From Actinomyces provencensis (GTDB taxonomy: Bacteria > Actinomycetota > Actinomycetes > Actinomycetales > Actinomycetaceae), in assembly GCF_900155435.1 (NCBI RefSeq), contig NZ_LT700212.1, positions 2,664,099-2,728,098 on the forward strand: 64,000 nucleotides of DNA, in the 5' to 3' direction. Both the position numbers and the translations under genes were made by a program. Positions 26,416 to 61,187 of this stretch are shown here, piece by piece. The first letter of the stretch is position 1. Every line of letters starts with the position of its first letter. The notes under the pieces were generated by a model. That model was given only the letters and a program-made list of their open reading frames with translations. It was not told the DNA's origin and did no database searches.

Positions 26416-26521
26416 GGGTCGTGTTTCCTTCCCCAACAGGTGGGGCCAACACGAGCGGCGGCGACCGCTCGCGCGGTGCGACTCGTTGGAAAACACGACC
26501 CGGAACGCTCCGAGCGGAGCG
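26416..26521 (-). promoter_or_regulatory. Structured leader of the integrase gene
   Basis: A long inverted repeat has arms GGGTCGTGTTTCC (26416-26428) and GGAAAACACGACCC (26488-26501), complementary except for one extra base. Between them are two smaller hairpins (CCCCA/TGGGG at 26431-26445, ACCGC/GCGGT at 26464-26477), and CGCTCC/GGAGCG lies outside at 26506-26521. On the mRNA the 3' arm ends at the base before the ATG and contains the GGAAGGA-type ribosome site, so folding could hide it. Confidence 0.6.
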
Positions 26522-27841: not shown

Positions 27842-27918
27842 CGGAGTGCTCCTATCTGCTCACGCAGCCCGTCTTGCAGGGGCCGCTGTGGCGGAAAGGT
27901 GCGCGACCGTCTCCGGGG

Positions 27919-29694
27919 TCAGTTCTCGGTGCGGCGCAGGAGTGCTTCGATCTCTTTGCGGTCGGCGGTGAGCTGCCCGGCGTCGGGGCGGCTGGGCCAG
28001 GGGTGCAGGTCGGTGACGATGGGTGGTGCGGAGCGCAGCAGCACGACGCCTGTGCCGAAGGGCAGTCGGCGGATGCGGTCGGGTGGGAAGATCGGGACGC
28101 GGCGCACGGACCTTTGGTTGGAGCGGGTGCCGTGATCGCCCAGCGTCACCGAGTCGGTGTATTCGTCACGCTCACCGACCAGCGCGGAGAGGTCTTGCAG
28201 GTCGCGGGAGTTCGACGCGCCGCCGAGGATGACCTTCACAATGCTGGCATCCCAGATCGCATTGGCCTGGTGCTCGTTCCACTTGTCCCGCGCCTGCGCG
28301 AGTGACTGCAATACGGGCATGGTTGTGATGCCCGACCCGCCACCTTCGGCCATCAACGTCGGCAATGACGGCAGGGGCGAGAGGTTGGCTATCTCGTCCA
28401 GCGCCAGCAGCATCGGCGGATCGAGACGGGCACCGGGTGAGCGGGCAGCGAGACGGCGGGCCGTCTCGATGAGGTCTTCCACCAACGCAGCCACCAGCGC
28501 CGCGCTGGCTCCCGCACCGGAGCCGGTCGCCAGCAGGAACAGGGTGCCGCGGTCGCGGATGAATGCCTCGGGATCGAAGCCTTCTCCCTCGGCCGGTGAT
28601 ACGGCGTCGAGCACTCGGGGATCAGCGAGTGATCCGAGCGCGAGGGAGACTCCTTGCCAGATTGAGTCGCGGGTGCGTGGGTCGGAGTCGATCATCGCCT
28701 CCAAGGACTCGGCCCATCCGGTCGCGGCGCGGGTGGAGCCGGTCAGGATCGCCACCGCATCCGCGGCGGCGGTGGGATCGAGGGTCCAGCGGAACAGCTC
28801 GGCGGGTGGTCGGTTGTCGATCGCTGCGGCGTGCAGCAGGGCTTGGAGCGCGGCGCGGGTCTTGCCTTCCCAGAAGCCTCCGGAATCGACGCCGCCGGCG
28901 GACAGGCCGGTGCCGGCGGCGAGGCCGGTGGCGCGGATCATCGCGGTCTGTGGCGACTCGCATCCCCGGATCGGTGACCAGCGCAGTCCGGCGGGCAGCC
29001 CCTCAGCGAGGTGTTGGGGGTCGAAGATCGCGACGGGTCCGATGCGGCGGCGGGCGCGCATGGTCGCGGTCAGGTTGTCGGGTCGGGTGCTGGTGACGAC
29101 GACGGCGCCGGGTGCGTCGAGGATTGCCGGGATCACCAGGTGCAGGCCTTTGCCGGAGCGGGGCGGGCCGATGACCATGATCGAGTCCTCGACCGATGCC
29201 CACACGCTCACGCCTTTCGAGGCACCGAGCCGGTATCCGACATCGTGCGGCTTCGGGTCGGTCAGGCCGGGGCGGAGGTTCTCGGCCCTACGCAGCAGCG
29301 CCTTGTCTGATGCCGTGGTGGCGACTTCGTGGCGGGTGGCGATCCCGGCCATCCGTCGCGGGTCTTGCTCGGCCCGGTGGGTGAAGCGGCGCACTCGCAC
29401 CCACACGAACACCACCAGCGCAACGAGGAGCGCGAGCATGGCCCCGGTGACCACCCAGTAGACGATCGGGTTCAGACCGTCCGCATCGAGCGCGGCGCCA
29501 GGGTCGCCGGGATGGAACAGCACCCCAACCCCTGCCGCCAGTCCACCTTCGGGCTGGGCGGTGTCGGTGAGCCAGGCGGTGATGGTGCCAGCGGCGCGGA
29601 GGACGAGCGCGATCCCGAAGAGGGCGACCAGGCCGATCATGGCGGCGTTGGTCAGCTCGTCCCCGAACGATCCGGTCTGCCTCCCCTCGGTCAC
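27919..29694 (-). CDS. TraG/VirD4-type coupling ATPase
   Basis: A 591-residue type IV coupling protein that links the relaxosome to the transfer channel. There are two N-terminal helices (about 13-40 and 78-100), then Walker A GPPRSGKGLH (about 175-184) and Walker B LLALDEIANLSPLPSLP. The segment STRPDNLTATMRARR and the late GLATPMVLQSLAQ-like region fit the TraG family. It uses GTG 29694, overlapping the upstream gene by 4 bases (GTGA). Confidence 0.88.
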   Translation of the reverse strand: MTEGRQTGSFGDELTNAAMIGLVALFGIALVLRAAGTITAWLTDTAQPEGGLAAGVGVLFHPGDPGAALDADGLNPIVYWVVTGAMLALLVALVVFVWVRVRRFTHRAEQDPRRMAGIATRHEVATTASDKALLRRAENLRPGLTDPKPHDVGYRLGASKGVSVWASVEDSIMVIGPPRSGKGLHLVIPAILDAPGAVVVTSTRPDNLTATMRARRRIGPVAIFDPQHLAEGLPAGLRWSPIRGCESPQTAMIRATGLAAGTGLSAGGVDSGGFWEGKTRAALQALLHAAAIDNRPPAELFRWTLDPTAAADAVAILTGSTRAATGWAESLEAMIDSDPRTRDSIWQGVSLALGSLADPRVLDAVSPAEGEGFDPEAFIRDRGTLFLLATGSGAGASAALVAALVEDLIETARRLAARSPGARLDPPMLLALDEIANLSPLPSLPTLMAEGGGSGITTMPVLQSLAQARDKWNEHQANAIWDASIVKVILGGASNSRDLQDLSALVGERDEYTDSVTLGDHGTRSNQRSVRRVPIFPPDRIRRLPFGTGVVLLRSAPPIVTDLHPWPSRPDAGQLTADRKEIEALLRRTEN

Positions 29695-30209
29695 GGCAGC
29701 CGCCGGATCACCGTCGCGCCCGAGATCCGGCCGAGCAGCAGGACCTCAACCCGCCCGGTCGTCTGGTCTGGGATCGGATGCTTGGGGTCGATGATGGCGC
29801 GGGCGGTGCCGGTGTGCGCGGCGTCGGTGTGGCCGGTGATGATCGCAACGGCGACATCCTCACCGGGCACGAACCCCTCGCCCTCAACCGTATGGAACAC
29901 CGGCATGCCCGCTGCGGGCTTCGCCTCGACGGCCGGTTCTGGTTCGGGGAGGGCGCGGCGATGTCGTGCGGTGATGAGGTCGGTGAACACCGAGCCGTCT
30001 GCTTCGCGGACCTCGACGCGGATGGGGCGGGTGCGGTCGTTACTGGCCTGGTCGATGATCTGCGGGAATGACTCACGCCGCCACGGCGGCGCCCACTGAG
30101 GCGGCGTCAGCGGTGCCCCGTCGAGAGTGGCGATCAAGATGCCGTCCTCGTGCACCGTGAGAACGACGGTCGGGATGCTAACAGGCCAGTCGGGTTCGCT
30201 TCGCTTCAT
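29691..30209 (-). CDS. Conserved ICE hypothetical protein
   Basis: A 172-residue protein. The N-terminus (PTVVLTVHEDGILIATLDG) is a beta-hairpin-like start, with a Pro/Glu-rich linker and a C-terminal RVEVLLLGRISG. No known domain is recognised. It is coupled to the coupling-protein gene by a 4-base overlap. A GCGCACCTG motif lies 6 bases before its ATG, at the place where a ribosome site would be expected. Confidence 0.65.
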   Translation of the reverse strand: MKRSEPDWPVSIPTVVLTVHEDGILIATLDGAPLTPPQWAPPWRRESFPQIIDQASNDRTRPIRVEVREADGSVFTDLITARHRRALPEPEPAVEAKPAAGMPVFHTVEGEGFVPGEDVAVAIITGHTDAAHTGTARAIIDPKHPIPDQTTGRVEVLLLGRISGATVIRRLP

Positions 30210-30215
30210 GTCCGG

Positions 30216-30224
30216 CAGGTGCGC
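30216..30224 (-). repeat. ICE motif CAGGTGCGC (mRNA GCGCACCTG)
   Basis: A copy of the recurrent motif (see findings), 6 bases upstream of ATG 30209 on the minus strand. Confidence 0.6.
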
Positions 30225-30232
30225 CTGTGCCT

Positions 30233-30337
30233 CTACCGGGTATCGCCCTCCCTGCGTTCAGAGTCCAAGTGACCACGTTTTGACCTGGATGACGGGTTCG
30301 TGGGGCCGCTCGGAGTTTGCTGAGACTCCAACCACAT
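30233..30337 (-). CDS. Possible 34-residue small ORF
   Basis: ATG 30337 to TAG 30233, beginning MWLESQQTPSGPTNPSSRSK. A CAGGTGCGT motif copy is 5 bases upstream of its ATG. No homologue is recognised, and it may be a chance frame or a gene remnant. Confidence 0.2.
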   Translation of the reverse strand: MWLESQQTPSGPTNPSSRSKRGHLDSERREGDTR

Positions 30338-30544
30338 CAGGTCAGGTGCGTCACCAGATCACGTGCAAGGCCTTGGCGGTGGACAGGGTTGGGAGCAACG
30401 ACCAGAATGGGAGTGTCGTTGGTTCAAGGTGCTAGCGAGCCCTCAATGTGGCTTGGCACAGTGTGGCTGGCGGTGACCCTGGCTCTGGCGTTCGTCCGCC
30501 TCCTAAGTGAGATTCCCGGAAGGGACAAGCGAAAGGAGAAGCGT

Positions 30545-30775
30545 ATGAAAGCTACACGGGCAAGTGTCCCCAATAGTCAGTCCGGACAACCAAGGAAGTT
30601 CTTGCAGTATCTGCTCGAAACCATCTGGGCGGCGGGCGCTGGGGTCCTTGGGACCTCGCTAGCCACCTTGAGCCAACGAACGAGTGGAGCTCTCAGTGCG
30701 AGAGCTCCACTCCGCTATCCGGTCGACCCGGAGCCTGCATGGTGGAGTCCTCATTGGAGCGTTCACCAAGTTTAA
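30545..30775 (+). CDS. Small predicted membrane protein on opposite strand
   Basis: A 76-residue frame starting MKATRASVPNSQSG with a strong site GAAAGGAG (30533-30540) 5 bases upstream. One hydrophobic stretch (about residues 25-42, YLLETIWAAGAGVLGTSL) suggests a single membrane helix. It lies in a gap of about 620 bases inside the transfer operon, with lower GC than the flanking genes, and reads against them. No family is recognised. An in-frame upstream extension exists (from 30407, with another hydrophobic segment) but lacks a good ribosome site. Confidence 0.45.
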   Translation: MKATRASVPNSQSGQPRKFLQYLLETIWAAGAGVLGTSLATLSQRTSGALSARAPLRYPVDPEPAWWSPHWSVHQV

Positions 30776-30831
30776 TGGTCCACCGTTCTCGCTGAGGACT
30801 GCTGAGGATCGCCAGCGAACTTCCAAGATGT

Positions 30832-32301
30832 CTAGATCATGCGGGTCGTGGTGTCGAATAGCGCCAACTCATCGGGATGCATCTGGTGTTGCACGACGAA
30901 GGAGCGTTCCTTGATGCGCCACAGCCCCTGCCCAGTGCCCAGGCCGGGTAGGAGGTGTTGTTCGGTGCCGGTCAGGCCGAGGGTCTTGGCGGTGAGGGAG
31001 AGTTGGTCGGACTCTTGCCGGTAGATCACTCTCGTTTCGGCGTTGGCGAGCAGGCTGTTTGCCAGGGAGCGCATGGCCGAGCCTTGATCGCCCACGTTGT
31101 CGAGGTCGCTCAGCTTGTGGAAGATGAGCATGTTGGCCAACCCGTAGTGGCGGGCGAGCCGCCATTGGGCGTCCATCCGGCGTAGCAGGGCGGGGTGGGC
31201 CATGAGTCGCCAGGCTTCGTCGTAGATCATCCAGCGTTTCCCGCCATCGGGGTCCATCAGCGCGGCTTCCATCCACGCCGACGCGCAGGTCATCAACACG
31301 CTCAGCAGGGCGGCGTTCTCCGCGACCCGGCTCAGGTCGAGGCTCACCATCGGCAACGTGGGGTCGAACCGGACGGTGGAGGGGCCGTCGAACAGGCCAG
31401 CGAGGTCGCCACCGACGAGTCGGCGCAGCGCGTGCGCGACGAGTCGGCCGTCTTCGGCCAGCCGCCCGTCCTCGTCGGTGGACGGGGTGAGTAGGCGGTC
31501 TACGACCATCGGCAGGATCGGCACCTTCGCATCTCGGACAGCCGCGGTCAAGGCGGTGTCAATGGCGGTGTGTTCCAAGGGCGACAAGTCGCGCCCGAGC
31601 ACCGTTTCTGCGAGCGCACCCAGCAACTCGCGACGCCGCGACGCCAACGTGGAGCCCCATTCCCGATCCGACAGACCCGAGGGCCGGTGGCCTTCATCGA
31701 GTGGGTTCAGCCGAGTGCGGAGCCCGTGGCCGAGGACGATGGCCTTCCCGCCAACTGCCTCGGCGACGGCGGTGTGCTCGCCCTTGGGGTCGCACGCGAT
31801 GTAGACGCGGCGACCGAACGGCAACGATCGCGTGTAGAGCGACTTGGCGAGGCTGGATTTTCCGGAGCCGACGATGCCGGCGAGGATCATATTCGGGGCG
31901 GTGATGATGCCCCGCCGGTACAACTCCCACGGGTCATAGACGAACGATCCGCCAGAGTACATGTCCTGCCCGACGAACACGCCCTGACTGCCGAGGCCGC
32001 CTTCGGCGAGGAACGGATACTGCGCCGACAGCACCGCGCTGGTGTCCTGATGGCGTGGGAGGCGAAACCGGCCCGGCGTCCGCAGCATCGCCGGTCCGGG
32101 TTCGCCGGCCTTCGGCAGATACGTCGTGGCACGCCGCTCGGCTCGCTCGGCTTCGGCCTTGGCTTTGGCGGCTTTGGCCTCAGCGCGGCGTTGCTCGGCG
32201 ACGAGCCGGGCGGCAGCCTGCCGGCGTTGCTTGCGGTACTTGCGCCGCTCCGACGCCGGGGCGACGAGCACCGAGGTATGCAGCTTCTCCCGCTCGTTCA
32301 C
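30832..32301 (-). CDS. VirB4-like type IV secretion ATPase
   Basis: A 489-residue motor ATPase. An N-terminal basic Ala/Lys/Arg coiled region is followed by Walker A LAGIVGSGKSSLAKSL, Walker B KRWMIYDEAWRLM and the trailing ANMLIFHKLSDLDNVGDQGS and QESDQL segments typical of VirB4/TraC C-terminal domains. It is assumed to power pilus/channel assembly at the membrane. It corresponds to the ATPase half that is fused in other systems; the SCO6880-type gene upstream may supply the N-terminal function. GTG 32301 overlaps the upstream gene by 4 bases. Confidence 0.82.
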   Translation of the reverse strand: MNEREKLHTSVLVAPASERRKYRKQRRQAAARLVAEQRRAEAKAAKAKAEAERAERRATTYLPKAGEPGPAMLRTPGRFRLPRHQDTSAVLSAQYPFLAEGGLGSQGVFVGQDMYSGGSFVYDPWELYRRGIITAPNMILAGIVGSGKSSLAKSLYTRSLPFGRRVYIACDPKGEHTAVAEAVGGKAIVLGHGLRTRLNPLDEGHRPSGLSDREWGSTLASRRRELLGALAETVLGRDLSPLEHTAIDTALTAAVRDAKVPILPMVVDRLLTPSTDEDGRLAEDGRLVAHALRRLVGGDLAGLFDGPSTVRFDPTLPMVSLDLSRVAENAALLSVLMTCASAWMEAALMDPDGGKRWMIYDEAWRLMAHPALLRRMDAQWRLARHYGLANMLIFHKLSDLDNVGDQGSAMRSLANSLLANAETRVIYRQESDQLSLTAKTLGLTGTEQHLLPGLGTGQGLWRIKERSFVVQHQMHPDELALFDTTTRMI

Positions 32302-32726
32302 AGCGACCGCCCCCGCGTGCGAGCATCTGAACTGGCAGCGGAGCGGTCGAACCACGACGGCCCCGGTGGCAGCGGTGGTGTCTCGCTCAGGAGGGCGAGT
32401 GCGTCGGCGTTCTGCCGCGCGGCCTCCGCCGCCCACTCTGGGAACAGCCCGGCGTGCTCGGCATGGCCGGGGTGGTCGATGGCGTACTGCCGGGACTCAC
32501 CGGCGGCACCGAGGTATCCGGCGAGGTCGCGCAGCGCCCGCTCGGGCGCGACGGGGGCACCGGCGCCGGTGAACAGGTCGCGGCCTTCGAGGCTGTGCCC
32601 GGCTTCGGTGTCCTCGATGCGGTAGGCGTACCGCTGGTGCTCGCCGACCGGGGTATCGGGCCAGACGGTCAGGGTGAGCGTGCCGGCCTGCCGGGAGGTG
32701 CGTGGCGTGGGGTCTGTGGTGTTCAT
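32298..32726 (-). CDS. Conserved ICE hypothetical protein
   Basis: A 142-residue protein. The N-terminal part (GTLTLTVWPDTPVGEHQRYAY) is beta-rich and the C-terminal half helical (AEAARQNADALALL). No domain is recognised. It sits between a 270-residue unknown and the VirB4-like gene, with a 4-base overlap to the latter. ATG 32726 has no Shine-Dalgarno but has the GCGCACCTG motif 6 bases upstream. Confidence 0.6.
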   Translation of the reverse strand: MNTTDPTPRTSRQAGTLTLTVWPDTPVGEHQRYAYRIEDTEAGHSLEGRDLFTGAGAPVAPERALRDLAGYLGAAGESRQYAIDHPGHAEHAGLFPEWAAEAARQNADALALLSETPPLPPGPSWFDRSAASSDARTRGRSL

Positions 32727-32732
32727 GCCGGG

Positions 32733-32741
32733 CAGGTGCGC
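32733..32741 (-). repeat. ICE motif CAGGTGCGC (mRNA GCGCACCTG)
   Basis: A copy of the recurrent motif, 6 bases upstream of ATG 32726. It continues as CCCCGGCACC, which could pair into a small hairpin. Confidence 0.6.
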
Positions 32742-32759
32742 CCCCGGCACCGGCAGGGG

Positions 32760-33572
32760 TCAGAGTGAGAGGCGGCCGCTCTGTTTGAGCGTCGTGATCG
32801 CGGCCGGCTCGAACCACGACCCCTGCGACTGCGCCTGCCGGGGTGCGACAGCGGGCTTCGGGGCGTTCGGGGACGAGTACGACACCAGCAGTTCCGGCCC
32901 GCCCCGCACCGGCGCGGGCGCTTCGGTTTGTTCGGGTTCGGGGTTGGTGGTGTGGCGGCGGAGCAGGGAGACGTAGCCGATGTGTGGGTTCACGACCAGC
33001 GCGTAGTCGCCCGAGATCGCTACCTGGTCGTTGGTTCCTTCGCCGGGTTTGTCGTAGACGTACCCGTTTTCCATTGCTGCGTCGGTGGTCTCGTCGCCGT
33101 AGTCCCACTGGGCGAGGTAGTCCACCGCGTCGACGTGCCCGAGTTCTCCGAGGATGCGCAGCGGCCGGTCGGCCTCATCGCCCTGCAAGAACACGACACT
33201 GACCCACCGCTCGGTGGTGGCGGGTTGGGGGTGCCAGACGATCTTGCCGGACTGGATGAACGCGGCACTGAGTTGATCGTGCGCCCGGTCCAGCAGTACC
33301 GCGGCCTGATGGAACCCATCGGCCGCGCTCAGTGCCGCGACGGCTCCAGCCTTCCGGTCACCGTCATCGGTGCTCACGCCGTCTTGGTGGCGCAGGTGGA
33401 CGCCTGCGAGCTGGTCGAGCACTTGCCCCAGGCACCGGATACCGGCGACCACCTCGCCGATGACGCGGTAGGTCTCGGCGGGCTCGTCCCAGCTCCGGGT
33501 CGCGTGGGCCAGGCCCCGCAACGCCTCGTAGGCTTCGGCGGCGTCGGTGACGGGGTTCTCGTAGGTGGGCAT
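32760..33572 (-). CDS. Conserved ICE hypothetical protein
   Basis: A 270-residue protein, helical in the first half (EAYEALRGLAHATR, GVHLRHQDG, AVLLDRAHDQLSAAF) and beta-rich in the second (WVSVVFLQGDEADRPLRILGELGHVDA, YVYDKPGEG, DYALVVNPHIGYVSLLRR). No transmembrane segment or known domain is recognised. The position in the transfer operon suggests a cytoplasmic accessory role. ATG 33572 has GGAGG on the mRNA 5-10 bases upstream. Its promoter side faces the divergent DUF4062-like gene. Confidence 0.65.
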   Translation of the reverse strand: MPTYENPVTDAAEAYEALRGLAHATRSWDEPAETYRVIGEVVAGIRCLGQVLDQLAGVHLRHQDGVSTDDGDRKAGAVAALSAADGFHQAAVLLDRAHDQLSAAFIQSGKIVWHPQPATTERWVSVVFLQGDEADRPLRILGELGHVDAVDYLAQWDYGDETTDAAMENGYVYDKPGEGTNDQVAISGDYALVVNPHIGYVSLLRRHTTNPEPEQTEAPAPVRGGPELLVSYSSPNAPKPAVAPRQAQSQGSWFEPAAITTLKQSGRLSL

Positions 33573-33606
33573 GGCGGGCCTCCATCGTTCAGGTTCGGAC
33601 GCCAAC

Positions 33607-33615
33607 CAGGTGCAC
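33607..33615 (-). repeat. ICE motif CAGGTGCAC
   Basis: A copy of the recurrent motif between two divergent genes. Here it is 34 bases from the minus-strand start and 39 from the plus-strand start. Confidence 0.5.
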
Positions 33616-33654
33616 GCCAGTGCCGATGTCAGCGACGTTCCCTAGGCTTAAGAC

Positions 33655-34512
33655 ATGCCCTATATCGCTTCCGTCCTGCGCGTAATGATCGCTTCGCCCT
33701 CCGATGTTCCGGAGGCACGGGACGCTGTGGAGAAGGCGGTTTATGGATGGAACGATGCCAATGCGCGAACGAAGGGGGTGATTCTGCAGCCGTGGCGGTG
33801 GGAGACATCGGCGGTGCCGGTCATGGGAGCGCATCCGCAGAAACTCATAAACGCGCAGGGTGTCGATGACTCCGACATCGTGTTCGCCCTGTTCGGCGGG
33901 CGCTTAGGGTCACCGACCCCCGATGCCATCTCGGGAACCATCGAAGAAGTGGATCGTGCTCTGGAGTTGGGCAGACCGGTTCACATGTACTTCTCAACTG
34001 CACCCTTGCCTAACGATGTTGACACGACGCAGCTCGACGCACTACGTGCCTTCAAGAAGGACATGCAGGATCGCGGCTTGCTGGGCGAGTTCAGCAGCGT
34101 CGAACAACTCAACCACGAAGTCTGGAAGGCCATAGAGCACGACATCTCAGCCGTGTCCCTCCCGCAGGCAACAGGGGCAGCCCCAAGCCCTGTCGGCGTT
34201 GATTTCCTCGTTCAACCGCGCCAGGAACGAGAGGTCTCGGGCTTCAGCTCCAAAGGTGCGCCGCGCTACAGCACGAAGCACTGGGCAGAGATCACCAATA
34301 CCGGTGACCGGGACGCCGAGAGCGTGACCTTTGAAAGCCCAACCGAGAACGGCGGCATGTTTGTCGGCGGTGATGATCCCACGACCATCCATCGTGGCCA
34401 GATGCGACGAGTGCCACTGATGTTCACCTTGGGCGGCTCTACCGATCCCATCCTTCGTATCCACTGGGTCGAGGACGGTGAGAACCACCAGCGTGACTTC
34501 CACGTTGGATAG
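33655..34512 (+). CDS. DUF4062-like cargo protein with C-terminal beta-sandwich
   Basis: A 285-residue protein on the strand opposite to the transfer operon. The N-terminal 150 residues (LRVMIASPSDVPEARDAVEKAV, DSDIVFALFGGRLGSPTP, GTIEEVDRALELGRPVHMYFS) look like the DUF4062 fold, related in shape to TIR and nucleoside deoxyribosyltransferase domains and often found in defence or signalling proteins. The C-terminal 100 residues are beta-rich (WAEITNTGDRDAESVTF, LRIHWVEDG) and resemble an Ig-like repeat. It has no transmembrane helix. It lies between SCO6880-type and unknown transfer genes and appears to have been inserted there. Family assignment is tentative and the function unknown. Confidence 0.6.
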   Translation: MPYIASVLRVMIASPSDVPEARDAVEKAVYGWNDANARTKGVILQPWRWETSAVPVMGAHPQKLINAQGVDDSDIVFALFGGRLGSPTPDAISGTIEEVDRALELGRPVHMYFSTAPLPNDVDTTQLDALRAFKKDMQDRGLLGEFSSVEQLNHEVWKAIEHDISAVSLPQATGAAPSPVGVDFLVQPRQEREVSGFSSKGAPRYSTKHWAEITNTGDRDAESVTFESPTENGGMFVGGDDPTTIHRGQMRRVPLMFTLGGSTDPILRIHWVEDGENHQRDFHVG

Positions 34513-34520
34513 AGGCCCTG

Positions 34521-35990
34521 CTAGATAGTGCGGCACAAGGGCAGCGCTGCGGCCGTGAACGCGGCGGCTTGCTGGCCGACGAGTCGCCGGGTTTCGCAGG
34601 AGCTTTGGATCGCGGCTTGGGTGATCGCGGCGACGGCGGCTTCGAGGTCGTCGATGCTGGGTGCCGACACACTGATGAGTCCGGTCACGCGCAGGACGCC
34701 GTGCCCGGCGGTGAGGTCGGCTTCTTGTTGCAGCACGTCGTGGAACTCGGCCGATTGGGCGGCGTCCTCGATCTGCCCGAGCCGGGCACGCTGGGCCGCG
34801 TCCGAGATGTACTCGACCTTCTTGCGGCGGATGTCGCGGGCGGCCTGGTCGGAGCGCATCGGGGTGTAGATCAGCGACACGGCACGTTGGATGCCGGTGG
34901 AGAGCAGGATCGGGGCGGCGAAGCCGGGATAGACGAGGCTGCGGGGCCATTCGGAGACCCAGAGCACGGCGTGGTGGGCGGAGTCGGTGCGCAGGTTGCC
35001 CCAGGTCTCGGTGACTGCGACCGGGCCGGCGGTGGCGAGGTCGCGGCCGATCTGCCCGTGCCGCTCCAACGCCGAGGCGACTGCTGGGTCGTAGGCGGAG
35101 CGGAGGATGACGGCGATCTGTCCGGCGTCGAGCCACCCGGAGGGGGCGAGGTCGGCCGACCGCAGCGCCGAGACCAGGGTGGACATCTCTTGCCGCAGTA
35201 CCCCGGCGGCGCCCTTGATGCCGCCGCCGGCGGTCCTGATCTGCCGGGCCGCGGCTTTCATGTCCAGCGACAGGCTGATCGTGGTGGCGTGCCGTTCCCC
35301 GGCCGGGCCGGCGCGCTCGATCAGCTCGGCGTAGGTGTCGGCCGGCCAGGAGCCGTCCGGGGTGCCGTGCGCGGTCCACCATTCCGCCAACCCCGTGCCA
35401 GAGTCGGGCAGGGTGCGTTCGAGGACTTGTAGCGTCGCTATCCGGCCCGAGCGGCACACCGTCGCCAGCGCACGGCCCCAGGTGGTGACGCGGCGTTCCT
35501 GCTCGCCGGGGTCCAACAAGACGAACGCCGAATGGGCCACTTCGCACACGACTGTGAGGGTGGCGGCGTGGGGGTCGTGGATCATGCACGCCCCGGTCTC
35601 CAGGTCGGTGTATTCGCGGAGTCGTGCCATGTCGCCGGGGAGCGCGAGGGTGCCGGCGGGGCGGGGCTTGACGATGCGGCGGCGGTAGAGCAGTTGCCCG
35701 CCCGTGACCCGCCAGAGCCACCAGACGGTGACCGGCAGCCATTCAACGACCGGGCGCCCGCCGACCGGTATCCAGGTCAGCGCGGCGCAGAGCGCCCAGA
35801 CGGGGGCGGTGTAGGCGAGCAGCATCCCGCCGCCGGCGTAGAACGCGCCGATCAGGGTGAGGCCGCCGATGCCGAGGGTGACGAGTTGGGCGACCGACAG
35901 CCCCAGCAGCACCCCGCGGCGGGTGAGGCGGCTGAACTTCACCGGTACCAGCTCGCCCGGCGAGGCGGTGTCTTTCGCGTGACTGGGCAT
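34521..35990 (-). CDS. SCO6880-type transfer membrane protein (VirB3/VirB4 N-terminal-like)
   Basis: A 489-residue protein with two N-terminal membrane helices (about 27-70) followed by GTLALPGDMARLREYTDLETGACMIHDP and a soluble beta/alpha domain. The domain order matches SCO6880-family proteins, which resemble the PrgI membrane part plus the N-terminal domain of VirB4. There is no Walker A, so the ATPase part is supplied by the downstream VirB4-like gene, from which it is separated by the DUF4062-like gene and two unknowns. Its ATG is 3 bases after the VirB6-like stop. Confidence 0.75.
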   Translation of the reverse strand: MPSHAKDTASPGELVPVKFSRLTRRGVLLGLSVAQLVTLGIGGLTLIGAFYAGGGMLLAYTAPVWALCAALTWIPVGGRPVVEWLPVTVWWLWRVTGGQLLYRRRIVKPRPAGTLALPGDMARLREYTDLETGACMIHDPHAATLTVVCEVAHSAFVLLDPGEQERRVTTWGRALATVCRSGRIATLQVLERTLPDSGTGLAEWWTAHGTPDGSWPADTYAELIERAGPAGERHATTISLSLDMKAAARQIRTAGGGIKGAAGVLRQEMSTLVSALRSADLAPSGWLDAGQIAVILRSAYDPAVASALERHGQIGRDLATAGPVAVTETWGNLRTDSAHHAVLWVSEWPRSLVYPGFAAPILLSTGIQRAVSLIYTPMRSDQAARDIRRKKVEYISDAAQRARLGQIEDAAQSAEFHDVLQQEADLTAGHGVLRVTGLISVSAPSIDDLEAAVAAITQAAIQSSCETRRLVGQQAAAFTAAALPLCRTI

Positions 35991-35993
35991 CGG

Positions 35994-37367
35994 TCACTCC
36001 TTCGTCGGCTTGGGCGGGTTCGGGGTTGTCGGGCGTGGGCTCGGTGGTGCGGTCGGCGCCGGTGTCGAGGGCGATGGTGGGGCGCTGGTCTGTCCGGCGC
36101 CGGCGGCGGCCGTCTCGGCCTCGCCCGCCAACGCCGTCCCGGCCTTTGGCCCCGCGGTCGCGGCGCCCTTCACTACCTGCGCTCCGACCACGACCGCAGC
36201 CGCCGGGCCTGCCGCCGCAGCACCCGCCCCAGCTCCCGCGCCTGCGCTGGCTCCAGTTCCGGCGCTCCCGCTCGCGCCAGCTCCCGCGCCGGCACCGCTT
36301 GCGCCGCCGCTGCTTCCAGCGGTCGGGGTGGGCTTCGGCGGCACCGCACCACCGGCACCGCTTCCTGAACCACCGCCACCGTCGCCGCTGGTTTGGCCGT
36401 CGAGGACCTTCTTCGGCCCGTCACCGGACGGCTTCGACGGGACGGGGATGGGGCGGTTCAGGGCGCGCTTGGCGTCGTCCTCGGCGCCGGCCTGCCCGTA
36501 GTAGTCGGTGCCGACGAACGCGAGGAACCGGTACGTCAGATACGGGGCGAACCCGGCCAGCGCCATGAGCACGATGCCCGAGAGCGGATCGGACACCGAG
36601 GCCAGGTCGAGGTCGATGGGTGCGGCGACCTGGGTGATCGCCACGAGGAAGATCACGACCAGCACGAGTTTCGACAGGATCAAGGCGATGACGAACATGG
36701 CCCACTTGCCGACCCAGCCGCGTGCCGCGTCCCACGACGACCCGGAGAACGCCAACGGCGCCAGGGCGACCGCGACGAGCAGCAGCGACTTGCGGATCAG
36801 CAGCGACAGCCACACGATCGCCGCCGAGGCGATCGCCAGCCCGGCGAGGAAGATCATGATGATCGCGCCGACACCGGGGGCTGCGATGGACAGCCCGGAC
36901 AGGGCCAGGACGAGGGCGGCGATCTTGTCGCCCATCGTCTCGGTGGTTTCGCCGGCGGCTTGGATGATGCCGACGCAGAGTTGGTCGGTGATTTCCAGCA
37001 GCAGCGCGACCAGGGTGATGACCACGAAGGAGCCGAGGACGGATTTCCCGAGGCCGAGCGCGGCCCGGGTGAGGGCGGTGGGGTCGCGGCGGATCATGCC
37101 GGTGATGAGTTGAAGTGCGAAGAACAGCAGCATCACGAACACGGCGATGCCGAACACGAGGTTGAACACCGACACGAACCCTGGCCGCTGCACATCGATA
37201 AGAGTGGTGGTGTCGAAGACCGTCCAGACGGCCTCGAACAGCCAGCCGGCCGCGCCGCCCATCGCCTGCGCGAGCCAGTCGAACGGCGCCGACACCAGCG
37301 AGGCGGCGGCCTCACCGGCCGTCTCACACACGGTGGAAATCACTGGGACATCGCAAATGCCCATCAC
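35994..37367 (-). CDS. VirB6/TrbL-like polytopic membrane protein
   Basis: A 457-residue protein with six or seven hydrophobic segments between residues about 55 and 300 (VFNLVFGIAVFVMLLFFALQ, VLGSFVVITLVALLLEI, GAIIMIFLAGLAIASAAIVWLSLL and KWAMFVIALILSKLVLVVIF in part), then a long Gly/Ala/Pro tail of about 150 residues. This layout fits the VirB6/TrbL inner-membrane core of conjugation machines. The tail is low complexity. It starts at GTG 37367 or ATG 37364, with AGGAAGG upstream. Confidence 0.8.
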   Translation of the reverse strand: MMGICDVPVISTVCETAGEAAASLVSAPFDWLAQAMGGAAGWLFEAVWTVFDTTTLIDVQRPGFVSVFNLVFGIAVFVMLLFFALQLITGMIRRDPTALTRAALGLGKSVLGSFVVITLVALLLEITDQLCVGIIQAAGETTETMGDKIAALVLALSGLSIAAPGVGAIIMIFLAGLAIASAAIVWLSLLIRKSLLLVAVALAPLAFSGSSWDAARGWVGKWAMFVIALILSKLVLVVIFLVAITQVAAPIDLDLASVSDPLSGIVLMALAGFAPYLTYRFLAFVGTDYYGQAGAEDDAKRALNRPIPVPSKPSGDGPKKVLDGQTSGDGGGGSGSGAGGAVPPKPTPTAGSSGGASGAGAGAGASGSAGTGASAGAGAGAGAAAAGPAAAVVVGAQVVKGAATAGPKAGTALAGEAETAAAGAGQTSAPPSPSTPAPTAPPSPRPTTPNPPKPTKE

Positions 37368-37395
37368 AAGACCTGCCTTCCTCGCACGACTGCGC

Positions 37396-37665
37396 TCAGA
37401 CGGCTTGGCCGACGCCCCAGAAGAAGTTCACGAGCGCGACGCTCGCGCCGCAGATCACGGCGGCGCCGCAGGAAATCAGGACGCCGGTCTTGCCGCGTCC
37501 GGCGAGGTGGGGGTTGGAGCTGTTCGCGCCATAGGCCCACACGATCGCCGAAACGATCAGGGCGAGGACGGCCAGGATCAACCCCACCGTCATCACGGCA
37601 CCAACGATGGTGCGGAGCTGTTCGATACCGGGAAGACCGGTGCCATTGGGGTCGATGTCGATCAC
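37396..37665 (-). CDS. DUF6112-like two-helix membrane protein (first copy)
   Basis: An 89-residue protein with two membrane helices (GAVMTVGLILAVLALIVSAIVWAYG and VLISCGAAVICGASVALVNFFWG in part). GTG 37665 is favoured over longer starts because GGAG precedes it by 6-7 bases and because it equals the 89 residues of the paralogue upstream. It resembles DUF6112 proteins beside transfer genes; by size and topology it could be a VirB2-type pilin, but without a cleavable signal peptide. Confidence 0.7.
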   Translation of the reverse strand: MIDIDPNGTGLPGIEQLRTIVGAVMTVGLILAVLALIVSAIVWAYGANSSNPHLAGRGKTGVLISCGAAVICGASVALVNFFWGVGQAV

Positions 37666-37704
37666 GACGATTCTCCATTCACGCAGAGGGGTTGCTTCTG
37701 CCAT

Positions 37705-37713
37705 CAGGTGCGC
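37705..37713 (-). repeat. ICE motif CAGGTGCGC (mRNA GCGCACCTG)
   Basis: A copy of the recurrent motif in the 127-base gap between the two DUF6112-like genes. It abuts an in-frame ATG (37704). Confidence 0.55.
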
Positions 37714-37792
37714 CCCCACCACCCGCCTGCCGTTGCATGACGTGCGAAGGCCCGCCCCGAGACGATCCGGGACGGGCCACACGCAGTACGGG

Positions 37793-38062
37793 TCAGAGTT
37801 GTCGGCCGAGAGCGATCAGCCAGTTCATCCACGCCACCCCGCCACCGGCCAGAGCGGCGGCACCGAGGGCGACCAGTACCCCGACCCGGCCCTTGGCGGC
37901 AGCGGAGTAGTTGCCGTGAGAGGCAGCGATCGCCCAGCAGATCGCGGAGACGATCAGCATGAGCACCGCGATGATGAGCACGAACATGAACAGCGCACCG
38001 ACGACCTGTTTCAGATCACCGATCCCAGCCAGACCATCGAAATCGGGGAACACGTCCATCAC
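37793..38062 (-). CDS. DUF6112-like two-helix membrane protein (second copy)
   Basis: An 89-residue paralogue of the protein at 37396-37665. It starts DVFPDFDGLAGIGDLKQVVGALF, with helices VLIIAVLMLIVSAICWAIA and VLVALGAAALAGGGVAWMNWL. Both copies share the GIxxLrxxVGA start and a WxN near the end. It overlaps the M23 gene by 4 bases (GTGA). A VirB2-like pilin or channel subunit role is inferred. Confidence 0.7.
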   Translation of the reverse strand: MMDVFPDFDGLAGIGDLKQVVGALFMFVLIIAVLMLIVSAICWAIAASHGNYSAAAKGRVGVLVALGAAALAGGGVAWMNWLIALGRQL

Positions 38063-39672
38063 GCACCGGCTTTCACGGTGACGTGCAGGTGGTCGAAGTG
38101 GCCGCCGGTGATCGAGGCGGGGTCGTGCATCCCACCGCCGTTGTACGGCCGCCAGCCCTGGTCGTCGCGGGCAACAGACCAGATTTTCCCTTGCCAGATC
38201 AGGTACTCCACCCCGAGCACGGCGGCGTTGTCCTTCATCCAGTTCGTGACCTTCCAGCCAGCTTCCAACTGGCCCGGTGTCGAGTAGCGACCGATGGCGT
38301 TGCCGAAGGTAATGTCACACGCCCGCCCGAGCGGATGCTCGGACTTCGTGCCGGGCCTCGGTGAGTAGCAGCCCCAGCCGGTGTCGGGGAACGCGGCTTT
38401 GGTCTGGGCCATGAGGTGCGCGAGCCGAGCGGTGATCCGCCCGTTGCTGGTGGGGTCGTCCACCATCTGATCCGGGTCACCCGTCAACGGGGTCGGAACT
38501 CCTGCGGCGCCGTTCTGGCAGCCCGCGGCGGGGCCGGTGGCAGCTTCGGGAAGGTTCGCCGCGCCGTGGTCGCCCAGCCACTTCGCGGGGTCGATGGCTT
38601 CGCCGTTGGTGCCGCCGGGGCGGACCTCGAAGTGCAGATGCGCCCCCGTGGACAGGCCCGAGGAGCCGACGTCCCCGATGTGCTGCCCGGCGCTCACCCG
38701 GTCTCCGACGTGGACGTGGATGCCGCTCTGCCACATGTGCGCATACGCGGTCGCGACGCTCTGGCCGTCGATGGTGTGCTCGATGACGATGAGACCGCCG
38801 TAGCCGCCGCTGAACTCTGCCACGGTCACGGTGCCGTCCGCGACGGCCAGGATCGGCGTGCCATCGGGGGCTGCGAGGTCGAGGCCGGTGTGCAAGGACT
38901 GTTCGCCGGTGATCGGGTGGATGCGCGGACCGAAGTCGTCGGTCTTGACCCACGTCCCTTCCGGCAGCGGGAACACCACCCGCGACGACTCCGCCACGCC
39001 AACTGCCGGCCCACCGCGGCCCCCACTGCTGCGGGTGAGGGTGTCGAGGATGGTGTCGGCGACGGGCGCGTAGTTGCGGTACCGGTCGGGGAACGCGCTG
39101 ATTTCGACGGCTTGGGCGGCTTCGCCGGGGTCCATGCGCTCCCATCCCGGAATGTCCAGCAACCCGCGCGGCGAGGGGTAGTTCGGGCCACTCGGCCCGC
39201 CGAAGAACGCCCGCGCCTGATACTGCGGGTCCATCAACTCCGCGACCGTGCCCCACCCAGATTGCGGGCGCATCTGGAACAAGCCCAGACTGTCGTGATC
39301 CGAGCCGTTGCCATCGTTCGGAAAATCGGCACTCTCGGGATAGGTGCCGATGTTCGACAGCATCCGCAGCGTGGACTCGGTAAGCGCCGCCATCAGCGCG
39401 ACCTTCACACCGGCCCGGCCCACCCCGTCGATCCGGCCGCCGACCGTGATGATGGTGGCCGCATGGGTGAGCTGCCGCTTGTTCAACGTGAACGTCGCGC
39501 CGTCTGCGGTGGTGACTTGGAGGCTGTCAGGCACGTTGCCCACCGAGAGCGTGCCGGTGGTGGTGCAGGCGGCGATGGCGGCGGGGTTCATCAGCACCCC
39601 GATCCCGATTAGCAGCATCGCGGGGCCGAAGAACAGCCCGGCGAGAGCGAGGACAGCGAACTTCTTGAACAC
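38059..39672 (-). CDS. Transfer-associated wall hydrolase: lytic-transglycosylase-like plus M23 peptidase plus C-terminal VanY-like domain
   Basis: A 537-residue exported enzyme. It has an N-terminal signal or anchor helix (FAVLALAGLFFGPAMLLIG), then ALTESTLRMLSNIG...SLGLFQMRPQSGWG (a lysozyme/SLT-like pattern), then an M23 metallopeptidase (HTGLDLAAPDGTPI and HLHFEVRPGG supply the zinc ligands), and a C-terminal domain with SEHPLGRACDITFG and GGHFDHLHVTV, a VanY/D,D-carboxypeptidase-like zinc pattern. Such proteins open the peptidoglycan for the conjugation channel. It starts at GTG 39672. Confidence 0.82.
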   Translation of the reverse strand: MFKKFAVLALAGLFFGPAMLLIGIGVLMNPAAIAACTTTGTLSVGNVPDSLQVTTADGATFTLNKRQLTHAATIITVGGRIDGVGRAGVKVALMAALTESTLRMLSNIGTYPESADFPNDGNGSDHDSLGLFQMRPQSGWGTVAELMDPQYQARAFFGGPSGPNYPSPRGLLDIPGWERMDPGEAAQAVEISAFPDRYRNYAPVADTILDTLTRSSGGRGGPAVGVAESSRVVFPLPEGTWVKTDDFGPRIHPITGEQSLHTGLDLAAPDGTPILAVADGTVTVAEFSGGYGGLIVIEHTIDGQSVATAYAHMWQSGIHVHVGDRVSAGQHIGDVGSSGLSTGAHLHFEVRPGGTNGEAIDPAKWLGDHGAANLPEAATGPAAGCQNGAAGVPTPLTGDPDQMVDDPTSNGRITARLAHLMAQTKAAFPDTGWGCYSPRPGTKSEHPLGRACDITFGNAIGRYSTPGQLEAGWKVTNWMKDNAAVLGVEYLIWQGKIWSVARDDQGWRPYNGGGMHDPASITGGHFDHLHVTVKAGA

Positions 39673-39685
39673 GACAGGCCCGCTC

Positions 39686-40360
39686 TCATCGCAGCGGGTT
39701 GTCGAGCTGGGACAGCCGCAGCACCGAGCACGACCCGCCGGTATCGGGGCAGAGCACGAACACGGTGAACGACACGGCGTGTTCGCTGGTGACGGGTTCG
39801 CCGTTCCAGGCGCCGTCGCGGTGCCGGGTGGCCTCGATCGTGAACGCGCTGGTGCCAGGGGCGATCTGGCCGGGCTGTGCCTGCGTCACGGCGTCGGCCC
39901 ACGTCTTGGGCACGAACGCCTGGTCGATCAGGAGGTGCTGGCGGGTCTCGTGCTTGCGCAGCTCGATCCATGCATCGCGCGTCGGCAGATAGGTCGCCAG
40001 GTCGGAGGCGAGACCGGCTTGCTCGGTGCCGGACGGGTCACCGATGTCGAGGATCGCGGCCGTGTAGTCCAGCGGCATGAGTCCGCTGGTGGTGTCCCAC
40101 GCGAAGATCGCCTCGGCGACGTTGCGGGCGAACGTCTCCGGGTCAGCGGATCGCGGCACCACCGGAAGCCGCGGCGACGGGGCCGGAGTCGTGGGCGTGT
40201 GCGTCGGGGACGGTGCCGGGTCCGGGGTCGGGGTGCTGGTGGTGCGGGGTCCGAGGACCAGGCCGTAGATGCCGACCCCGGCGAGGATCAGGAGCGCGAG
40301 GCCGGCGGCGATGAGGGCGACCAGGTGGCCACGCGAGAGGGATGGGGAGGAGGTCTTCAT
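39686..40360 (-). CDS. VirB8/TcpC-like transfer protein
   Basis: A 224-residue protein with one N-terminal membrane helix (HLVALIAAGLALLILAGVGIYGLVLG), a Thr/Pro linker and a soluble domain outside (FARNVAEAIFAWDTTSGL, SFTVFVLCPDTGGSC, which could hold one disulfide). This topology fits bitopic VirB8-like proteins of Gram-positive conjugation systems; the sequence link is weak. ATG 40360 has the GCGCACCTG motif 6 bases upstream and no clear Shine-Dalgarno. Confidence 0.65.
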   Translation of the reverse strand: MKTSSPSLSRGHLVALIAAGLALLILAGVGIYGLVLGPRTTSTPTPDPAPSPTHTPTTPAPSPRLPVVPRSADPETFARNVAEAIFAWDTTSGLMPLDYTAAILDIGDPSGTEQAGLASDLATYLPTRDAWIELRKHETRQHLLIDQAFVPKTWADAVTQAQPGQIAPGTSAFTIEATRHRDGAWNGEPVTSEHAVSFTVFVLCPDTGGSCSVLRLSQLDNPLR

Positions 40361-40366
40361 GCCCGT

Positions 40367-40375
40367 CAGGTGCGC
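40367..40375 (-). repeat. ICE motif CAGGTGCGC (mRNA GCGCACCTG)
   Basis: A copy of the recurrent motif, 6 bases upstream of ATG 40360, at the same spacing as the copies at 30216 and 32733. Confidence 0.6.
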
Positions 40376-40396
40376 CCCAGCAGACCGAGCGCCGCG

Positions 40397-41398
40397 TCAG
40401 AGTGCGCGCAGGTGCGGGCGTTCGGCGGCGTGTTCGCGGGCGGCGCGTAGACGGCCCGCGAACTGCTGGGTGCCTTCGACGGTCGCGTAGAACGACTCGA
40501 CCTGCTCGTCGGTGAGCTGTGTGGCGAGCTCGTCCAGGTCGTAGTGCAGCCACCACGAGTCGAGTTCGGCCCAGGTGAGCACGAACGCCCGCACCGCATA
40601 CCGCGCATCCGGCACCGCCGGCGTAGCCTTCCCCGCCTTCGACTTCGGCTTGCCATTCTTCGGTGCGCTGGCGTCGATGCGGGCGAGGGCTTGTTCGGCC
40701 AGGTCGTGCAGATGCTCGTCGCGGGCGGTGTCGCTGGTCTGGTGGATGTCACGGACCCGCTGATATGCGGGGTCGACCGGGCCGCCGGCCTCGATCTGCG
40801 TCAGCCCGGCCTGTGCCTCAATACGCAGCGGTTCTGGCGTGTCGGGGTCGGCGACGAGGTGTTGCAGGTAGCCGATCTGTTCCAGCCGTGTGTAGGAGTT
40901 GGCGCCGGTGACCATCTGTGCGGCCTGCCTGCGGGTATCGCCTGCGGGCGTAGCCAACGGCTCCGCCGATTCGACGGGGCCGTTCCACCGGGGCTGATAG
41001 TCGCTGGTGAACTGCCCGGCCGCCTCACGTCGGGCGGCGTCCTCGGCCATCAGCGTCTTGATCTCCCGATACAGCCCGGCGGCTTCCAGCGGGGAGAGGG
41101 TCTTGTGGAGCTGGTTGTCGTCCTGCTCGGCCAGCAGGTGCCCCAACCTGTCCGAGATGGACGAGCGCACCCAGACGTTGACGGTGCGCCAGCCGAGCTG
41201 CCGGATCGCGGCGAGCCGCCGCATCCCACAGACGAGCACCCCGTCGGGGGTGATGGTGATGGGTTGCAGCAGCCCGTCCCGGTCGATGGACGCGGCGAGA
41301 GCATCGAGGTCTCCGAGGTCGTGCCGGTGCCGGCGGCCGACCTGGATCGACTCGACGGTCCGGTCGAGTTCGATGTGCCCCGTCGCCGCGGTCATCAC
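40397..41398 (-). CDS. ParB N-terminal domain protein of the ICE
   Basis: A 333-residue protein. Residues about 15-110 form a ParB/sulfiredoxin-type domain (DLDALAASIDRDGLLQPITITPDGVLVCGMRRLAAIRQLGW, then LLAEQDDNQLHKTLSPLEAAGLYREI, the box II equivalent). The rest is helical. It could bind ICE DNA sites, act as a CTPase or stabilise the circular form; no helix-turn-helix was recognised. It starts at GTG 41398 (GTGA overlap with the upstream gene) or ATG 41395. Confidence 0.75.
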   Translation of the reverse strand: MMTAATGHIELDRTVESIQVGRRHRHDLGDLDALAASIDRDGLLQPITITPDGVLVCGMRRLAAIRQLGWRTVNVWVRSSISDRLGHLLAEQDDNQLHKTLSPLEAAGLYREIKTLMAEDAARREAAGQFTSDYQPRWNGPVESAEPLATPAGDTRRQAAQMVTGANSYTRLEQIGYLQHLVADPDTPEPLRIEAQAGLTQIEAGGPVDPAYQRVRDIHQTSDTARDEHLHDLAEQALARIDASAPKNGKPKSKAGKATPAVPDARYAVRAFVLTWAELDSWWLHYDLDELATQLTDEQVESFYATVEGTQQFAGRLRAAREHAAERPHLRAL

Positions 41399-42258
41399 GC
41401 ACCTCGCCGTCGGGTGTGGGGTGCGGCGTGGCTGATGGTCGCCACGAGCCCGTCATCGCCCAGCAGCACGGGCAGGCCCTCGCCGATCAGCAGCCGCAGC
41501 AGGATGCCTCGGCCTTCGCCGGTCGTCCCGTAGCCGGGAGTGGTGCGGCCCAGCAGCACACGCAACAGCATCGTCCATGAGGCGGCGGGGACATCGAGCA
41601 GGGCGCGAGCGTGCTGGTCGCGGCGCAGCGCCTCATAGGTGCCGGTGCGTGACCCGATCCGGGCGAGGGCTTCACAGACGTGCTCGATCGCCGGGCGGGC
41701 GGTGCCCTCGGGCCAGCCCAGCAGCATGAACAACACGATCGCGTCCTCCACCGCGCCGGTCACCGACGCCGGCTCACCCACATCCGCATCGGGTTCGTCG
41801 TCGTTGTGGTGGGGGTCGGTGACGTGGAACGCCGGGTGGTAGTCCGACAGCGTGTTGTCGCGTTCGGAGAGCCGTTCGGGGTCGTGGAAGCAGGAGATGT
41901 GCGGGCGGCGGGCCTGATGCACCGAGCACAGCAGCCCTTGGCCGCGCTCTTCGGCGATGCAGGTGATCCGCACCGCATGTGTCACGACAGCCCACGGGTC
42001 GTCGGCCTCACGGGCGGCGCGGGTACGCATCACGTCGAACGCCGCCGACGCGGCCTCCCACGGGTCCAGACCGTGCTTGCGCGCCAGCGGCATGTACTTC
42101 TCCGCCGCGAACATCATCAGCTCGGCGGCTACCGGGTCGTGCTCCCACGCGCCGGGGCCGGCGTCGTGGAGCCGGTTCAGCAGGGAACGCAGGCCCTCAC
42201 CGCTGGTGTAGTCCTCACCCGCAGGATCGGTCGCGGTCGGGGTGGTGGTCGAAGCCAT
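41395..42258 (-). CDS. Conserved ICE hypothetical protein
   Basis: A 287-residue acidic protein (LLNRLHDAGPGAWEHDPVAAELMMFAAEKYMPLARKHGLDPWEAASAAFDVMR core) that looks all-helical. No known domain is identified; some sigma-factor-like context words (SAAFDVMRTRA) are too weak for a call. ATG 42258 has AGGAGG 10 bases upstream on the mRNA. It is coupled to the ParB-like gene by a 4-base overlap. Confidence 0.6.
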   Translation of the reverse strand: MASTTTPTATDPAGEDYTSGEGLRSLLNRLHDAGPGAWEHDPVAAELMMFAAEKYMPLARKHGLDPWEAASAAFDVMRTRAAREADDPWAVVTHAVRITCIAEERGQGLLCSVHQARRPHISCFHDPERLSERDNTLSDYHPAFHVTDPHHNDDEPDADVGEPASVTGAVEDAIVLFMLLGWPEGTARPAIEHVCEALARIGSRTGTYEALRRDQHARALLDVPAASWTMLLRVLLGRTTPGYGTTGEGRGILLRLLIGEGLPVLLGDDGLVATISHAAPHTRRRGA

Positions 42259-42280
42259 GGTGTGGGCACCTCCTGGCAGG

Positions 42281-42289
42281 CAGGTGCAC
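42281..42289 (-). repeat. ICE motif CAGGTGCAC
   Basis: A copy of the recurrent motif 22 bases upstream of ATG 42258, outside a normal AGGAGG site. Confidence 0.5.
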
Positions 42290-42352
42290 CGGCCGCCCCT
42301 GGCGACCCTCACCCCGCTGCGCTGGGTGTCCATGACTCATCACCACCCCGGC

Positions 42353-60985: not shown

Positions 60986-61187
60986 GATCGGTGTCCTTCC
61001 ACTCCACGGTCACCGACGAGGTGCACCCCCGGGCGCCACCGCGAGGGGTTCCCAACGTCGCAGCTCAGACGTAGAGTTGAAGGTGAGGCGGCTTTCTCCT
61101 TCACAGTGGGCCGTTCGCGGCAGGCCTTCGGGCCACTCTTCAACGCACCGTCTCGCAGAGACACCTTGCGTAGAAGAGGAGCATCCG

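Follow-up and report, generated by a model that had tools for sequence, protein, structure and literature searches.

In Actinobacteria, genes transcribed without a leader are marked by a TANNNT element about 12 bp upstream of their starts (PMC3160421), and the phylum lacks sigma-54 (PMC3162934). Among integrative and conjugative elements (ICEs), those of the ConjTn1549 type carry a sigma factor gene in the transfer module (PMC4701971). The element considered here is an ICE on a 64,000-nucleotide stretch of Actinomyces provencensis DNA (contig NZ_LT700212.1, positions 2,664,099 to 2,728,098; the whole stretch is called the window below, and its own numbering is used), in which a short motif, GYGCACCTG, recurs ahead of genes of a type IV secretion system (T4SS) and of other conserved ICE genes. 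From its sequence context this motif is likely a promoter, and we lean towards its being the core of a dedicated promoter of the transfer operons of this ICE family, probably read by p287, an element-encoded sigma-like protein.

The ICE sites of the leaderless type resemble the TANNNT promoters in lacking a Shine-Dalgarno (SD) sequence, in having a six-base element about 12 bp before the start codon and in having the start codon at the presumed +1. They differ in that CACCTG takes that place, with a G a further 10 nt or so upstream; and in a family-wide search (with GGYGCACCTGNNNGNCATG, see below) the copies of the motif that looked functional belonged to this kind of element. The sigma-54 consensus, at -24/-12, has a GG-N10-GC spacing, and the ICE promoter likewise has a GG and a GC 10 nt apart, at about -25/-24 and -13/-12, the GC being fixed by our search pattern; GYGCACCT, however, is not TTGCW. 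A search for RpoN (PF04552) gave no match above the cut-off in 18 genomes, that of A. provencensis included (0/18), and two weak matches below it. SetCD and the regulators of ICEclc-type ICEs are activators working with host sigma factors; these elements are like the present one in encoding the regulators of their transfer regulon, and differ in this respect from the element-encoded sigma-like factor proposed here.

Annotated sigma factor genes stand ahead of the transfer cluster in two Micrococcaceae T4SS plasmids (L163:1339-2268 and L164:8911-9702). These genes (WP_160318823.1 and WP_309817931.1) precede the T4SS genes in both plasmids, near the place that p287 occupies in the ICE, and in the Citricoccus plasmid the sigma factor gene follows a DUF2637 gene. 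No significant sequence similarity was found between p287 and the two plasmid sigma factors.

In the titles and abstract openings of the open-access papers searched, we found no account of how the transfer genes are switched on in these T4SS-type actinobacterial ICEs, and neither an actinobacterial ICE sigma factor nor this promoter was described there. If our proposal is true, much of the regulon would be defined by a single ICE protein together with a 25-bp signal, so that the switch could be tested directly and predicted from sequence in many genera. With it would come a further class of promoter and a candidate family of initiation factors, unnamed in the copies of Pfam and NCBIfam that were used. 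That p287 is the founder of a new element-encoded sigma-like family, with a -24/-12-spaced promoter devoid of a -35 element and a partly leaderless transfer regulon in a phylum without sigma-54, is a further step, to which we would give somewhat less than an even chance.

Motif sites in related elements

The case for the motif from the window alone is modest. CAGGTGCRC, its form as written on the plus strand, has 10 matches on the two strands of the window against 2.66 expected, a count reached by 1 of 100 shuffles; the bare 8-mer GGTGCRCC is unenriched there (20 matches against 14.5 expected, matched by 13 of 100 shuffles). Comparison with relatives makes the case strong. The locus set consists of the best 80 of 172 loci from a scan of named genomes, each of at most 20 kb and all of them actinobacterial, which span Microbacterium, Brevibacterium, Arthrobacter, Tessaracoccus, Streptomyces and other genera. 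In them GYGCACCT[GA] has 231 matches in operon sense and 32 in antisense, as against 40 and 26 in a control with one dinucleotide shuffle per locus. Just 9 of the 231 sense sites are inside mapped genes, where genes were mapped solely by similarity to those of the window and sequence outside mapped genes may include unmapped ones. The preliminary description of this DNA, made from the window alone, had proposed the motif as a regulatory signal recurring across the ICE and tied to starts that lack an SD, and the related loci support that proposal.

The sense sites lie upstream of p224 (64 sites), p287 (50), p270 (18), p142 (8) and p172 (6); another 64 were matched to no mapped gene start, many of them about 416-429 nt before VirB6, which is the position of the DUF6112 gene. 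The wider pattern GYGCACCT gives 295 sites outside mapped genes, distributed over p224 (65), p287 (62), DUF6112 (46, a class assigned by distance to VirB6), p270 (34), g42 (14), M78 (9), p142 (8), p172 (6) and others (51).

Position is constrained as well as strand. Ahead of p224, CACCT begins 12 nt before the ATG in 66 of the 80 loci and 11 nt before it in 12, leaving a gap of 5-6 nt after CACCTG in 78/80; two of the 80 have TACCT in place of CACCT. The start is ATG in 80/80, partly by construction, because the start-codon script favours ATG over GTG and TTG. Mean pairwise identity among 63 distinct p224 upstream sequences is 0.72 at -15 to -7 and 0.40 at -6 to -4, with 0.44 at -30 to -17 and 0.34-0.37 further out, and many relatives of p224 retain GYGCACCT[GA] and then GG[CT]ATG while the intergenic flanks diverge. 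Matches to p224 itself at E 0.001 were found in 50/396 genomes of the order, and at E < 1e-30 in 37 places in 32 genomes.

When 213 genomes of the family were searched with GGYGCACCTGNNNGNCATG, 28 places were found. Judged by eye from their contexts, five belong to this kind of element (three in the window, one before a p224 relative in L013 and one before a p172-like protein in L024), and most of the remaining places appear to be coding coincidences, for instance in purE-like genes. The genome of A. provencensis has four copies of GYGCACCTGNCNGNCATG, three in this ICE and one in another element of its family. The second ICE of this family in that genome, locus L223 (contig C1 917000-936999), has the motif before p224, before p270 and where an extra, leaderless ATG stands between M23 and the gene that follows; its p287 has none directly in front.

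Geometry of the proposed promoter and its candidate reader

For the geometry of the proposed promoter, 93 non-redundant sites were aligned on the motif, 43 of the 295 sites labelled 'other' being left out. A G, which is not part of the search pattern, is found at index -10 (= -25) in 79/93 and at index -9 (= -24) in 62/93. About 6 nt after the hexamer, at index 14/15 and likewise outside the search pattern, there is a pyrimidine-purine (YR) step at 57 of the 64 leadered non-redundant sites, against a background of 26%. The YR step was suspected by eye before it was counted; the upstream G was unexpected. Antisense control sites have the G in 5/27 and the YR step in 3/27, and among 18 sites chosen by eye from 30 rows, which come from more distant elements and from the second A. 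provencensis ICE, each of the two is present in 15/18. Binomial tails for these counts are indicative only, as the sites share ancestry. No further conserved upstream element (-35) was found among the 93 aligned sites. At the eight sites of the window, the G at -25 is present in six and the YR step is at the same offset in seven, being one base earlier at 37713.

The layout that we propose from these features would have G(G) at -25/-24, GYGCACCTG at -15 to -7, with CACCTG in the position of a -10 box (-12 to -7), Y at -1 and R at +1, with no -35 element. At p224, p142 and p172, +1 would be the A of the ATG, and the mRNA would therefore be leaderless, with no need of an SD; p224 does have an element at the -10 position, about 6 nt from a start codon without an SD, as expected of a leaderless promoter, and CACCT occupies the place where a leaderless sigma-A promoter would have TANNNT at -12. 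At p287, p270, DUF6112 and probably the DprA gene, the same promoter would give rise to a short leader with a normal SD. p287, at the head of one such operon, is usually found behind the same promoter, so that it could activate its own gene along with those for transfer. We infer that +1 is the transcription start, that the core of the host RNA polymerase would be used with p287 as its specificity factor, and that p287 would activate itself. The basis of all this, at the level of sequence, is the motif, its constraint in strand and position, the YR step, the upstream G, the division between SD-less and SD-led starts and the linkage to p287.

p287, and not one of the proteins named in the preliminary description, is the likeliest reader. 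That description had put forward the ParB-like protein and the helix-turn-helix protein at 63062-63532 as binders, for or against which we found nothing direct. It is present in 72 of the 80 loci, and judging from where motif and protein occur together, the motif is linked to it better than to ParB or DUF2637. Class-wide, p287 was found at E 1e-8 in 19/394 genomes, and of the 22 loci concerned we examined 18, leaving out the two in A. provencensis and two that were incomplete. GYGCACCT stands upstream of p287 in nine of these 18, several of them outside this order, with the YR step in eight of the nine and the G likewise in eight. Two short loci, L219 and L220 (9 and 17 kb), have p287 and no other relative of the ICE at E 0.001; there are CACCT-type sites before their p287, and after it ACCTG-N5-ATG, ahead of a short putative reading frame. 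Four plasmids with a related VirB4, chosen from 589 records, have no match to p287, and no motif was found before their T4SS genes; five of their six sense matches are within annotated genes, and a 7-mer count showed no obvious motif of their own in the four T4SS clusters.

In an AlphaFold model built with 41 sequences (predicted local distance difference test, pLDDT, 82; predicted template modelling score, pTM, 0.46), the N-terminal domain of p287 appears to resemble sigma region 2, at fold level only. When 148 Foldseek chains were re-ranked with VIA-align against this domain, the top 18 rows were, by their titles, chains of sigma factors or RNA polymerase complexes (Z 8.4 to 4.3), and the next row, from other proteins, had Z 3.7. 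They include sigmaE (1or7_A; Z 7.3, root-mean-square deviation (rmsd) 3.7, 92 aligned) and sigmaS (6omf_F; Z 7.3, rmsd 2.7, 87 aligned). Searching PDB sequences with the p287 profile gave unrelated matches alone (best E 0.15), and a comparison with viral models gave some phage sigma factors amid unrelated rows (best sigma E 0.88); p287 was not found in the phage records searched or in one viral-contig scan. A sequence feature of sigma-70 was looked for in p287 and not found, and the protein is therefore termed sigma-like and not filed as a sigma-70 member.

A number of observations weigh against a sigma-like p287 acting at this promoter. Several of the 18 rows have an rmsd of 9 to 20, and the list comes from re-ranking, not from a search; middling Z values are common for helical domains, and the best sigma match by Foldseek has E 0.96. 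p287 has no match in Pfam or NCBIfam; a Pfam scan of 41 members at E 10 gave no sigma family (Sigma70_r2 was absent) and 12 unrelated families weakly matched, the best at E 0.05. Against 14 sigma region-2 sequences (20 regions less six in which no W is followed by L, I or V), the p287 hidden Markov model scored 11.7, a value that 4 of 30 column shuffles also attained. No clear structural match was found for the C-terminal domain (pLDDT 89), in which no region 4 was identified; its best Z is 3.8, and two sigma rows (5wuq_B, Z 3.1; 4cxf_A, Z 2.7) lie amid unrelated ones. As for the promoter, the other 9/18 divergent p287 loci are without a motif directly upstream of p287, as are the close loci L109, L110, L114, L115 and L156; the strict motif is found at p142 in 8/17 and at p172 in 5/30 of the loci in which the gene was mapped; the G at -25 is absent at 30224 and 33615 in the window; and the proposed +1 is itself a prediction from sequence.

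The same promoter might instead be read by the ordinary sigma factor of the host, together with an ICE activator (p287, the ParB-like protein or the DUF2637 helix-turn-helix (HTH) protein) bound at the motif. Several HTH proteins are encoded by the ICE, and the sigma identity of p287 is unproven by sequence. We nevertheless regard this as rather improbable: a host -10 box of the TANNNT type is missing from all eight window sites, in a stretch that runs from 70 nt before the motif start to 20 nt after it; the motif itself fills -12 to -7, where the host -10 box would be expected; and L219 and L220 keep p287 and motif-like sites while relatives of ParB and DUF2637 are unrecognised there.

Leaders, spacing and symmetry of the sites

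Some of the sites lie within a row of co-directional genes separated by short gaps, which could suggest an element acting on RNA, either a pause or antitermination site (RfaH/ops-like) or a processing site in a long transfer transcript. The gap between ParB and p224 is such a case, the ATG of p224 being 36 nt behind the ParB stop codon in 32/77 loci. This explanation seems quite doubtful, as it leaves unaccounted for the SD-less ATG at a fixed 5-6 nt, a site between divergent genes and a site after a stable hairpin. The second of these is the p270 site, in an 82-bp gap; p270 lies behind an oppositely oriented gene and therefore plausibly needs a promoter in the gap that holds the motif. The third is the DUF6112 site, downstream of a hairpin that follows the preceding gene (-48.4 kcal/mol for 87 nt, z -3.42). 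Both positions speak for a promoter. The gene divergent to p270 is a DUF4062 cargo gene (33655-34512, plus strand), preceded by TAGGCT-N6-ATG, the usual actinobacterial leaderless layout.

The preliminary description had also suggested that the motif takes the place of the SD and signals non-canonical initiation at a fixed spacing. The gaps of 5-6 nt to the ATG at p224 and of 6 nt at the p142 and p172 sites agree with this. In three gene classes, however, tens of bases separate the same motif from a start that has an SD: an SD and a start codon are found in the leader at 62/62 p287, 32/34 p270 and 45/46 DUF6112 sites, whereas no SD-led start occurs in the next 65 nt at p224 (0/65), p142 (0/8) or p172 (0/6), where the ATG follows the motif directly. 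Behind unassigned sites, an SD-led start was found in 15/43. An SD core just before the start is present in 4/80 p224 genes and 63/66 p287 genes, and the distance from motif start to estimated gene start is about 15 nt at p224 and p142, while at p270 it ranges from 35 to 89 nt. Constant spacing would be expected of a translation signal, but not necessarily of a promoter. Folds of three single sites, moreover, showed no RNA hairpin at the motif better than shuffles (z 0.65, 1.08 and 0.36), the stretch before the DUF6112 site being the only one to fold notably well. A substitute for the SD appears very unlikely.

Another reading is a palindromic operator for an ICE repressor; the preliminary description had suggested an operator for an ICE regulator. 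GGTGCACC is palindromic and a CACCT/AGGTG inverted repeat is present at many p287 leaders. An operator with two-fold symmetry would be indifferent to orientation; the motif is strand-specific, as the bias given above attests, and its two halves vary unequally, with C or T at position 2 of the aligned p224 sites and its palindromic partner A invariant. At p287 the SD forms part of the inverted repeat, and at p224 no such repeat is seen. We hold such an operator to be highly improbable. In many p287 leaders (L063-L142) the inverted repeat is formed by GCACCT and the SD AGGAGGTGC, and could possibly exert a further control on p287 translation, if transcripts start upstream of it.

That the motif encodes a conserved peptide, x-H-L-x-G-M, with which its being in frame with the ATG at the N6 sites would agree, is next to impossible, as there is no in-frame upstream ATG, GTG or TTG at 30209 or 40360 in the window, the motif also stands, non-coding, ahead of SD-led genes, and the frame is broken in 12 of 78 loci, where the spacing is shorter by one nt.

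Sites and neighbouring features in the window

The eight sites counted in the window are read on the minus strand, as are the genes behind them, and begin at 27904, 30224, 32741, 33615, 37713, 40375, 42289 and 61026. Three would be leaderless. GCGCACCTG at 40367..40375, the proposed -15 to -7, with a G at 40385 (-25), would start transcription at 40360, the A of the ATG of p224 (39686..40360), a conserved ICE protein of 224 aa whose start, without an SD, is exactly 6 nt after CACCTG. The GCGCACCTG at 32733..32741 has its proposed start at 32726, for p142 (32298..32726, 142 aa), ahead of a VirB4-like ATPase, and the one at 30216..30224 at 30209, for p172 (29691..30209, 172 aa), ahead of a VirD4-like coupling protein. 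The preliminary description was exact in the 6-base gap between motif and ATG at 30209, 32726 and 40360, and correct in placing CAGGTGCRC on the plus strand at 30216, 32733, 33607, 37705, 40367 and 42281.

In most of the other sites a leader is predicted. GTGCACCTG at 42281..42289 would have its start at 42274 (the A of AGGAGG), followed by a short leader with a strong SD and the ATG at 42258 of p287 (41395..42258, 287 aa). This site, described at first as extragenic, is so only with the gene start at 42258 and not with the ATG at 42333 of the list of open reading frames (ORFs); relatives favour 42258, with a conserved AGGAGGTGCC and then ATG. The GCGCACCTG at 37705..37713 has its proposed start at 37699 and a leader with the SD GGAG before the GTG start, at 37665, of the DUF6112 gene (37396-37665). 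For p270 (32760..33572, a conserved ICE protein of 270 aa), GTGCACCTG is at 33607..33615, with a proposed start at 33600 and a leader with an SD to the ATG at 33572. A palindrome noted at 61020 is a plausible site if read on the minus strand, as GTGCACCTC at 61018..61026, with a proposed start at 61011, upstream of a DprA-family gene (59981-60985). An additional site, GCGCACCTT at 27896..27904, is between the VirD4-like gene and the gene at 27383-27841, with a proposed start at 27889.

The remaining four CAGGTGCRC matches were set aside: that at 24716 is within tRNA-Ala, that at 9095 is before the ICE region, and those at 42587 and 51650 are inside the ORFs 42353-42751 and 51432-52226. Minus-strand matches to GYGCACCT between 27 and 62 kb were excluded at 51170, 38421 and 34261, because they are in or against ORFs, and at 53533, because it was not assignable. 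This last one, GTGCACCTT, has the YR step and no upstream G, and lies 38 nt ahead of a DNA-methylase ORF (52350-53495) that starts with GTG; it may be a ninth site. A copy first listed at 30343 is on the minus strand the off-consensus GACGCACCTG (30340-30350), upstream of the p172 site by about 125 nt; the relative L064 has the consensus GTGCACCTG at the matching place, so that the window may here hold a decaying tandem site.

A gene for a Mutator-family transposase (45372-46619, minus strand) is just upstream of an M78/ArdC-like gene, at a position where the motif is found in some relatives. At the probable integration end of the element, a gene for a large serine recombinase (24667-26496, minus strand) is beside tRNA-Ala (24695-24770, plus strand), which contains GCGCACCTG, taken here as a coincidence.

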